NCBI RefSeq assembly: GCF_052857255.1 | Contig: NC_135505.1 | Location: 55,044,792 to 55,108,791, forward strand | DNA from: Amblyomma americanum | Lineage: Eukaryota > Arthropoda > Arachnida > Ixodida > Ixodidae | Direction of reading: 5' to 3' | DNA length: 64,000 nucleotides | Shown: positions 43,093 through 45,589 of the stretch, in pieces | Layout of the letters: each line of letters starts with the position of its first letter | How positions within the stretch are numbered: position 1 is the stretch's first letter | Position numbers and translations under genes: made by a program | The notes under the pieces: model-generated | The model's input: only the letters and a program-made list of their open reading frames with translations | The model's database searches: none | What the model was told of the DNA's origin: nothing

Positions 43093-43188
43093 TATATATA
43101 TATATATATATATATATATATATATATATATATATATATATATATATATATATATATATATATATATATATATATATATATATATATA
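43093..43188. repeat. (TA)n microsatellite, left of the tRNA-like array
   Basis: About 48 uninterrupted TA dinucleotides ending where the first 497-bp unit begins. The incidental alternating Y-I frame across it is an artefact. Confidence 0.97.
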
Positions 43189-43380
43189 GCCAGACAAGTT
43201 AAAGGAAATGAGGGGCCCGTTTGACAAATTTATTAAGGGAGCCAACAGTCACCGAAACCAAGGTGCATAGGGGAACGTTAATTTTTTTTAAATGTGTTAT
43301 GCTTATTAGTGGGCTAATAATACTTAGATTAATAAATAGCTTAAATAAAATTATTTATAAAGCAGCAGAAAAAACAACCA

Positions 43381-43454
43381 TGCCGCCGGTGGGATCCGAA
43401 CCCACGACCTCCGAATATCGCGTCCGGTGCTCTTACCAACTGAGCTACGGCGAC
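43381..43454 (-). tRNA. tRNA-like gene copy 1 (anticodon position CGA, atypical)
   Basis: It folds as a cloverleaf: acceptor GTCGCCG/CGGCGGC (one G-U), D stem GCTC/GAGC, anticodon stem CCGGA/TTCGG, T stem GTGGG/CCCAC, discriminator A. The A box TAGCTCAGTTGG and B box GGTTCGGATCC fit a polymerase III promoter. The anticodon loop CGCGATA has G instead of the invariant T at position 33, and there is no long variable arm as expected for a serine tRNA with CGA. It is therefore probably a tRNA-derived repeat rather than a decoding tRNA. Confidence 0.65.
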
Positions 43455-43877
43455 GGCTGTCCAATCTGCTGCTCTCGTGGGTATTTATGTTTACTGGGTG
43501 TAAGCGAGCCATGAGAGTGTTCACCAGCGCCACCCTCTACCATAGCGGCGGACGTAGCACGTCCTGTAATACCGCGAGCGTGACCTAGAACGTCATCTAA
43601 CGGCGAGGGCGGAAACTGTGCGAGAGCCCTCTTATGCTACCTATGGCATCAAGACTGCCAGAACCGAGACCCTCGTTAAGCTATTCGCAGACAAGTTAAA
43701 GGAAATGAGGGGCCCGTTTGACAAATTTATTAAGGGAGCCAACAGTCACCGAAACCAAGGTGCATAGGGGAACGTTAATTTTTTTTAAATGTGTTATGCT
43801 TATTAGTGGGATAATAATACTTAGATTAATAAATAGCTTAAAGAAAATTACTTATAAAGCAGCAGAAAAAACAACCA

Positions 43878-43951
43878 TGCCGCCGGTGGGATCCGAACCC
43901 ACGACCTCCGAATATCGCGTCCGGTGCTCTTACCAACTGAGCTACGGCGAC
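43878..43951 (-). tRNA. tRNA-like gene copy 2
   Basis: Identical 74-nt cloverleaf and internal promoter boxes to copy 1, one unit (497 bp) downstream in the left arm. The same atypical anticodon loop is present. Confidence 0.65.
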
Positions 43952-44298
43952 GGCTGTCCAATCTGCTGCTCTCGTGGGTATTTATGTTTACTGGGTGTAA
44001 GCGAGCCTTGAGAGTGTTCACCAGCGCCACCCTCTACCATAGCGGCGGACGTAGCACGTCCTGTAATACCGCGAGCGTGACCTAGAACGTCATCTAACGG
44101 CGAGGGCGGAAACTGTGCGAGAGCCCTCTTATGCTACCTATGGCATCAAGACTGCCAGAACCGAGACCCTCGTTAAGCTATTCGCAGACAAGTTAAAGGA
44201 AATGAGGGGCCGTTTGACAAATTTATTAAGGGAGCCAACAGTCACCGAAACCAAGGTGCATAACATAAATACCCACGAGAGCAGCAGATTGGACAGCC

Positions 44299-44372
44299 GT
44301 CGCCGTAGCTCAGTTGGTAAGAGCACCGGACGCGATATTCGGAGGTCGTGGGTTCGGATCCCACCGGCGGCA
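44299..44372 (+). tRNA. tRNA-like gene copy 3, inverted
   Basis: Same 74 nt on the opposite strand, first of the right arm, 37 bases after the inversion junction. Confidence 0.65.
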
Positions 44373-44795
44373 TGGTTGTTTTTTCTGCTGCTTTATAAGT
44401 AATTTTCTTTAAGCTATTTATTAATCTAAGTATTATTATCCCACTAATAAGCATAACACATTTAAAAAAAATTAACGTTCCCCTATGCACCTTGGTTTCG
44501 GTGACTGTTGGCTCCCTTAATAAATTTGTCAAACGGGCCCCTCATTTCCTTTAACTTGTCTGCGAATAGCTTAACGAGGGTCTCGGTTCTGGCAGTCTTG
44601 ATGCCATAGGTAGCATAAGAGGGCTCTCGCACAGTTTCCGCCCTCGCCGTTAGATGACGTTCTAGGTCACGCTCGCGGTATTACAGGACGTGCTACGTCC
44701 GCCGCTATGGTAGAGGGTGGCGCTGGTGAACACTCTCAAGGCTCGCTTACACCCACTAAACATAAATACCTACGAGAGCAGCAGATTGGACAGCC

Positions 44796-44869
44796 GTCGC
44801 CGTAGCTCAGTTGGTAAGAGCACCGGACGCGATATTCGGAGGTCGTGGGTTCGGATCCCACCGGCGGCA
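44796..44869 (+). tRNA. tRNA-like gene copy 4, inverted
   Basis: Same sequence as copy 3, exactly 497 bp further. Confidence 0.65.
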
Positions 44870-45291
44870 TGGTTGTTTTTTCTGCTGCTTTATAAGTAAT
44901 TTTCTTTAAGCAATTTATTAATCTAAGTATTATTATCCCACTAATAAGCATAACACATTTAAAAAAAATTAACGTTCCCCTATGCACCTTGGTTTCGGTG
45001 ACTGTTGGCTCCCTTCATAAATTTGTCAAACGGGCCCCTCATTTCCTTTAACTTGTCTGCGAATAGCTTAACGAGGGTCTCGGTTCTGGCAGTCTTGATG
45101 CCATAGGTAGCATAAGAGGGCTCTCGCACAGTTTCCGCCCTCGCCGTTAGATTACGTTCTAGGTCACGCTCGCGGTATTACAGGACGTGCTACGTCCGCC
45201 GCTATGGTAGAGGGTGGCGCTGGTGAACACTCTCAAGGCTCGCTTACACCCAGTAAACATAAATACCCACGAGAGCAGCAGATTGGACAGC

Positions 45292-45359
45292 GTCGCTCAG
45301 TTGGTAAGAGCACCGGACGCGATATTCGGAGGTCGTGGGTTCGGATCCCACCGGCGGCA
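45292..45359 (+). pseudogene. tRNA-like copy 5, six bases deleted in the acceptor/A-box region
   Basis: The sequence reads GTCGCTCAGTTGG where other copies read GTCGCCGTAGCTCAGTTGG, so six bases are missing. The acceptor stem cannot pair and the A box is shortened. The remainder, including the B box, is identical. Confidence 0.8.
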
Positions 45360-45514
45360 TGGTTGTTTTTTCTGCTGCTTTGTAAGTAATTTTCTTTAAG
45401 CTATTTATTAATCTAAGTATTATTATCCCACTAATAAGCATAACACATTTAAAAAAAATTAACGTTCCCCTATGCACCTTGGTTTCGGTGACTGTTGGCT
45501 CCCTTAATAAATAA

Positions 45515-45589
45515 ATATATATATATATATATATATATATATATATATATATATATATATATATATATATATATATATATAAATATATA
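45515..45589. repeat. (TA)n microsatellite, right of the tRNA-like array
   Basis: About 33 AT dinucleotides with minor interruptions at the end (AAATATATA). Together with 43093-43188 it forms the split equivalent of the single tract 25462-25508. Confidence 0.96.

Follow-up and report, generated by a model that had tools for sequence, protein, structure and literature searches.

The window analysed here, a 64,000-nucleotide stretch of the genome of the tick Amblyomma americanum (contig NC_135505.1, positions 55,044,792 to 55,108,791), contains at 43093–45589 two opposed tandem arms of a 497-bp unit, each arm bounded on its outer side by a (TA)n microsatellite. The unit carries a tRNA-like sequence, and the array is one member of a large dispersed family associated with TA tracts. 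On balance, the evidence favors insertion of a retroelement that is non-coding, contains a tRNA-like sequence, targets (TA)n and is copied from a circular sense RNA at both sides of the target.

The array and its empty counterpart

The target microsatellite consists of (TA)48 on the left (43093–43188) and of a TA-rich tract on the right (45513–45589), with a pure (TA)33 at 45516–45581. The left arm (43191–44261, minus strand) comprises 2.16 tandem units (unit 224–497, 1–497 and 1–301), and the right arm (44262–45512, plus strand) comprises 2.5 (44262–44758, 44759–45255 and 45256–45512, the last equivalent to unit 1–264). This layout agrees with a first-pass annotation made from the letters alone, which had described two-and-a-fraction copies one way and two-and-a-half the other, with (TA)n on both sides. 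The arms meet head-to-head at 44261/44262, where unit 224 adjoins unit 1 with a microhomology of 1 bp. Followed from the centre outward, each arm runs 5′ to 3′ and terminates in TA, the left one at unit 301 (site B) and the right one at unit 264 (site A).

The array is genuine and not a matter of chance, since the repeat has an exact period, its copies are 97–100% identical, and many further loci show this architecture. Among its six copies there are 10 substitutions, each private to one copy; the count excludes the bases adjoining TA and one mismatch in p3 (position 46) that was taken as part of a deletion. Taken alone, the array gives a weak test of star-like variation (P 0.06–0.18), on which we do not rely, and the AT-richness at its own breakpoints is not significant (P 0.12). 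The centre is not a simple palindrome, identity around the junction being at most 29%.

An empty version of the site is preserved elsewhere in the window. At 25462–25507 an uninterrupted 46-bp TA tract lies between flanks that match those of the array, as the first-pass annotation had noticed, and its conclusion that the array was gained inside the microsatellite is upheld. The flanks of the two loci differ at 202 of 1,293 and 131 of 849 aligned bases (about 15% substitutions), and some 20 bp adjoining TA in the left flank of the paralog are missing from the array locus. Because the duplicated flanks are so diverged, the array is evidently far younger than the flank duplication. The diverged duplication spans approximately 12–27 kb and 39–47 kb, and both of its copies include a tandem repeat of about 210 bp (12173–14216 and 38822–40229).

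The 497-bp unit has only short open reading frames. A 74-nt tRNA-like sequence at unit 38–111 lies within an extended hairpin (fold z −4.9), and a T6 run follows just 3′ of it, at unit 118–123. Rfam recovers all five copies previously claimed, four of them at 54.8 bits each, and these four are also called by ARAGORN: 43381–43454 (minus strand; anticodon CGA, class-I body), 43878–43951 (minus), 44299–44372 (plus, inside the extended hairpin at 44278–44394 and with the T6 run after it) and 44796–44869 (plus). The fifth, at 45286–45359 (plus), scores 35.9 bits and follows at a spacing of 490, because about 7 bp near its 5′ end are deleted; the constant 497-bp spacing originally reported thus holds for the period of the array and fails for this copy.

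The A box is TAGCTCAGTTG and the B box GGTTCGGATC, the latter one change away from what we take to be the consensus. The variable region has 5 nt and the T loop reads TTCGGAT; a class-II body with a long variable arm and a normal T loop were not found. Among seven human tRNAs, in the forms we assume for them, tRNA-Ser has the lowest identity to the tick sequence, which also has G at what is presumably the A58 position. Because a class-I body is combined with a CGA anticodon and with G at the expected A58, this part of the unit is more likely to be tRNA-derived than to be a working tRNA-Ser gene.

Comparison of the first unit at 29 loci, scored for positions at which at least two loci depart from the commonest base, reveals no such position in the tRNA-like part (0/74) or in unit 112–132 (0/21). 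Elsewhere the counts are 2/18 (unit 1–18), 12/91 (133–223), 1/33 (224–256), 5/51 (257–307) and 8/190 (308–497). This invariance hints that the tRNA-like part may be needed for spread, perhaps for making or ligating a circle; because the loci were picked by similarity, the indication is a weak one.

A dispersed family with common end rules

The assembly searched comprises 2.56 Gb in 429 contigs, the window being C9:55044792-55108791. One unit as query gave at least 279 matches (40 of 1,062 first-look candidates were scored), and 36 loci among the matches listed, that of the window included, were all examined; they are the loci that most resemble the window unit, and not a random sample. L033 and L044 are one locus, and L019 is an inverted duplicate of L020. 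At 26 of the 36 loci there is a two-armed array bounded by TA on its two outer sides. Single-arm inserts with TA on both sides number three (L014, L025 and L043). At L033/L044 the array is two-armed and its left end is not reached, at L039 an arm runs into an N gap, and L023 is two-armed though it has no TA at one outer end. Tandem arrays or pieces of arms were found at all 36 loci, and the single dispersed copies typical of short interspersed elements (SINEs) were not seen among them.

The association with TA extends well beyond these loci. The exact site-A end joined to TA occurs 1,121 times in the assembly (569 + 552), and the reversed control does not occur; the junctions include a second sequence type, with GGCTTCCTT instead of GGCTCCCTT. 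The notion of a mobile unit tied to (TA)n, one of the explanations first offered for the array, is thereby strengthened. A genome-wide survey had been named as a possible source of refutation, and in it both the TA association and the inverted and tandem order recur at other loci. The flanks of the 26 arrays are mutually unrelated except for neighbouring family pieces and one 88-bp repeat common to L030 and L036. Further pieces or arrays of the family lie nearby, in or beside TA tracts, at L013, L014, L026, L037, L038 and L044, with serial arrays within TA tracts at the last four; older fragments adjoin the arrays at L012 and L013, and a 61-bp inverted repeat surrounds the L026 array.

Several details of individual loci may be recorded here. 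Ends at unit 257 pass into (CA)n before (TA)n at L009 (7782), L037 (2458) and L042 (3716), and (CA)n stands on the B side of L041 (1168); perhaps these CA-flanked arrays are a subfamily with mixed CA/TA targets. At L013 (2440–2790) two successive copies occur of a short one-armed piece flanked on either side by TA, as if recombination between TA tracts had duplicated it. L016 has a single full unit, which matches one of the 12 units of L023 exactly, and the two loci could be a source-daughter pair. DNA patterns of the unit had no match in the viral_contigs, genome_contigs and phage collections, and the sole match in the plasmid collection, of 68 nt, covers the tRNA-like part only. Protein searches with the open reading frames of the unit gave no matches, and a tRNA-like unit in mirrored tandem arrays within TA was a combination not found in the literature searched.

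The arms obey strict rules of polarity. All 28 direct arm junctions (the 26 arrays, L023 and L033/L044) have the order minus then plus, so that the 5′ sides of the tRNA-like sequences face inward and the 3′ ends outward. There is no direct plus-then-minus junction among the 36 loci; where that order occurs, intervening sequence is present, with TA at its edges in nearly all cases. The outer 3′ ends are equally restricted. All 52 fall within unit 257–307, at site A (257–264) or site B (291–307), and an A end is paired with a B end in 24 of the 26 arrays (permutation P 2e-5), L013 having the form B + A. The A–B distance averages 38.7 nt and ranges from 28 to 44 nt; some A ends placed at 257 by the script were entered as 264, and with 257 the distance would reach about 50. 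End positions were taken by hand from alignments, and script results that stopped early at small indels (for example in units of L019, L030 and L038) were not used for the end counts.

At the centre of the arrays, by contrast with the fixed outer ends, the 52 inner 5′ ends show no departure from a uniform distribution (KS p 0.69). Arms range in length from about 16 bp (L016) to 13.8 units (L017); other short ones are found at L012 (about 63 bp), L014 (about 38 bp) and L042 (about 25 bp), those of L016 and L042 having been measured by eye. Twenty of the 26 centres measured, a set that omits L016 and L042 and adds L023 and L044, have overlaps of 0–6 bp by BLAST ends (mean 2.45, chance 0.66), and the remaining six contain filler of 1–18 bp. 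An overlap of at least 2 bp is present at 14 of the 20 filler-free centres (chance 16%, P 7e-8).

Template switching in a hairpin-prone TA tract, if taken as a purely local accident, is not supported, because arrays at scattered loci have the same polarity and the same fixed 3′ ends. It is also scarcely credible that the arrays are assembly artefacts, produced by fold-back reads or by the collapse of repeats. Assembly of inverted tandem repeats is difficult, and an N gap does lie beside the L039 arm, but the centre in the window is no simple palindrome, the copies carry private variants, and an assembler would not produce 26 arrays at unrelated flanks with common end rules.

Rolling-circle copying, by contrast with a local accident, fits the arrays, as had been suggested for the window from its sequence. 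The templates might have been small double-stranded DNA circles used in repair of (TA)n breaks; such circles would account for the tandem copies, the single monomer sequence in each array and the microhomology joints, and rolling-circle amplification of satellite circles has been proposed (PMC2543021, in part). Since either strand of a DNA circle can be copied, however, all arm orders would be expected, with the head-to-head order in about one quarter of two-armed arrays rather than at 28 of 28 junctions, and nothing would confine 52 of 52 starts to a stretch of 51 nt. We consider DNA circles improbable for these reasons. Copying of one single strand from both target ends would be expected to yield head-to-head polarity, which a double-stranded template does not predict.

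A DNA transposon that targets microsatellites (Mutator-like SaTar or MuTAnT, or Micron), or a Helentron-type rolling-circle element, is a highly improbable source. Elements of the former kind do sit in (TA)n or other simple repeats, SaTar forming series within one tract (PMC5907723, in part), and Helentron-type elements can carry short tandem arrays (PMC7492417, in part). The outer ends of the tick arrays, on the other hand, are not mutual inverted repeats, being A versus B in 24 of 26, and arms that vary from about 16 bp to 13.8 units around a random centre are at odds with the constant ends of a cut-and-paste element.

Template and course of insertion

Variation among the units indicates how many sequences contributed to each array. 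Units within an arm differ by 0.9% on average, those in the two arms of one locus by 0.8% and those of different loci by 2.7% (108 full units, 21 loci), and the nearest neighbour comes from the same locus for 92 of the 108. At the 12 loci whose two arms both contain full units, 95 of the 109 sites with minor variants are private to one unit, against 54 ± 10 in simulation. For the 16 loci with at least four full units the figure is 110 of 140 (69 ± 11 in coalescent simulation), and inclusion of L012 and L026 brings it to 203 of 254 (133 ± 25 simulated). The observed counts were reached by 0 of 5,000, 0 of 5,000 and 0 of 3,000 simulations, respectively. The tests omit L011, where the units do not vary, and every locus with no more than three full units, since variants there are private by definition. 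Arrays of 4–10 full units can be nearly invariant, as at L011 (0), L022 (0.04%), L034 (0.14%) and L028 (0.16%). Each array thus looks like the product of one event from one monomer sequence.

Two further explanations are affected by this pattern. The arrays might be DNA copies of one ancestral inverted array, spread for instance by TA-tract recombination, with sequence later lost at the centre of the palindrome and the arms altered by unequal exchange. Palindrome centres are unstable, serial arrays do occur in TA tracts at L026, L037, L038 and L044, and L019 and L020 are a duplicated pair; yet the units group by locus, variation within arrays is star-like, the inner ends look uniform, and the flanks of the 26 arrays are unrelated save for element remnants of serial arrays and the single 88-bp repeat. 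An ancestral array is thus very unlikely.

The second explanation invokes linear multimeric RNA. Read-through transcripts of existing arrays would anneal through (UA)n tails to (TA)n and be reverse transcribed from two sides, the A and B ends being inherited from the source arms. The polarity would be the same, the recurring 3′ ends and TA tails would be accounted for, and the identity of the L016 unit to one of those in L023 is what such copying might leave. A template of many units should carry the variation of its source, however, and L011, L022, L034 and L028 are nearly invariant; moreover, two different RNAs would be required at nearly every event. Linear RNA seems to us an unlikely template, though one that deserves consideration.

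The preferred account, two-sided copying of an RNA circle, draws these features together. The 3′ starts at the target are fixed, the 5′ ends look random and the arms stand head-to-head, a combination that points to two target ends priming reverse transcription on one template strand; tandem copies of one monomer, for which the unit has no fixed stop, suggest that the template is a circle. The template would be a 497-nt circular sense RNA. After a break or nick in (TA)n, both 3′ ends of the target DNA would prime reverse transcriptase on the circle, one at site A and the other at site B; each cDNA would follow the RNA round for anything from part of a turn to about 14 turns; and the two cDNA ends would then join in the middle of the array, usually through short microhomology. 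The reverse transcriptase would presumably be supplied by another element. In the predicted circular fold the unpaired probability is 0.85 at site A and 0.74 at site B, compared with 0.56 in the stretch between them and 0.41 overall. The pairing of an A end with a B end in 24 of the 26 arrays fits two primers on one circle. What the loci show directly is the TA target, the order of the arms, the end rules and a single monomer for each array; that the template is RNA and circular, that it is reverse transcribed and where the enzyme comes from are inferred.

A number of observations count against this account, beginning with the non-random choice of loci. TA is missing at one outer end in 6 of the 36 (L010, L019, L020, L021, L023 and L024), is short on one side at L014, and at L041 gives way on one side to (CA)n, with TATA alone at the joint. 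L012 and L014 have the form B + B (2 of 26 arrays), and the account gives no reason for the placement of site A, on the left in 6 arrays and on the right in 18. Alternatively, the A/B pair could result from an odd-length stagger of the TA break, which would leave one end TA and one AT. At L017, 6 variant sites are private and 12 are shared; later duplication inside arrays therefore also occurs. Rfam detected no ribozyme family in the window array (E up to 5) or in 1.2 kb of L022 (E up to 10). Finally, a T6 run should stop RNA polymerase III, so that its position 3′ of the tRNA-like part would call for another promoter or for read-through.

A further proposal, to which we give less than even credence, is that the arrays represent a new class of retroelement. 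Its ribozyme-free circular RNA, bearing a tRNA-like hairpin, would serve as an endless template on which both ends of a (TA)n break prime at two reserved sites, giving a mirror-image array in one event. If two-sided copying of an RNA circle is right, such a circle is written into the genome from both sides of a break for many turns; a mobile element has a new way of inserting itself; and inverted tandem arrays have a direct route of birth. The presence of at least 1,121 junctions in one genome makes the end rules, templates and ages open to statistical tests.

Related systems and other repeats in the window

In twin priming by L1, two target ends are primed on one RNA, which results in a head-to-head inversion with a microhomology joint. 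The tick arrays share with it the head-to-head arms, the 3′ ends directed outward at the target and the microhomology at the joint. Twin priming is a minority by-product on linear RNA, whereas the tick arrays take this arrangement as a rule and extend it over many units. Penelope-like elements resemble the arrays in that their copies are both tandem and inverted.

Metazoan retrozymes have in common with the tick array a tandem, non-coding and probably circular-RNA nature, and are most likely circularised by tRNA ligases (PMC7229834, in part). They are defined by a hammerhead ribozyme, however, whereas in the tick unit there is a tRNA-like hairpin and no hammerhead was found; the sections of PMC7229834 considered make no mention of arms placed head-to-head, of ends that pair or of insertion into TA, as in the tick arrays. 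We place the tick array, as a variant, among circular-RNA-type non-LTR (long terminal repeat) retroelements, and there is a real chance that it forms a class of its own.

SaTar, MuTAnT and Micron likewise reside inside (TA)n, several in series per tract, and TA is longer at filled than at empty sites, which may be counted as a further likeness (PMC5907723 and PMC4486113, in part, with Micron as cited there). SaTar and MuTAnT are described in these sources as Mutator-like DNA transposons with set ends. The tick arrays share their insertion into TA microsatellites and lack their terminal inverted repeats and constant ends; they consist of tRNA-bearing units and, unlike SaTar and MuTAnT, have random centres, no constant length and no matching terminal repeats. 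The authors of SaTar propose circular intermediates with microsatellite filler, in the form of DNA (PMC5907723, in part).

The tick unit has the tRNA-like part with A and B boxes that is a trait of tRNA-derived SINEs. Ruka, an abundant tick SINE whose tRNA-like part has been likened to serine tRNA, is similar in these respects and differs in its length of about 200 bp and its single dispersal (PMC3160391, in part). Counts of tRNA genes in ticks are reported to be 20–30 times those of other Acari and insects (PMC13105059, in part), and the tRNA-like copies of tick arrays may inflate raw counts of this kind; tRNA-derived repeats were filtered out according to the same source.

Several other repeats occur in the window. 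Two related LTR retrotransposons lie at 16391–24235 and 48344–55451. In the first, flanked by TCGT, the two LTRs agree throughout 1,183 bases save 2 gap positions; in the second, flanked by TGAC, they show 11 differences in 815 bases. A stretch of LTR retrotransposon polyprotein in the window has 98% identity to two Amblyomma americanum proteins. Another tRNA-like SINE, which we take to be Ruka-like, is present in four diverged copies, at 14222–14460, 14601–14837, 27588–27811 and 40361–40606; none has an adjoining TA tract or the inverted order of the array. There is a tandem duplication of 225 bp, in two copies, at 6209–6658, and at 31318–32208 an open fragment of a reverse transcriptase (RVT_1), with LINE-1 ORF2 among its best sequence matches to solved structures.
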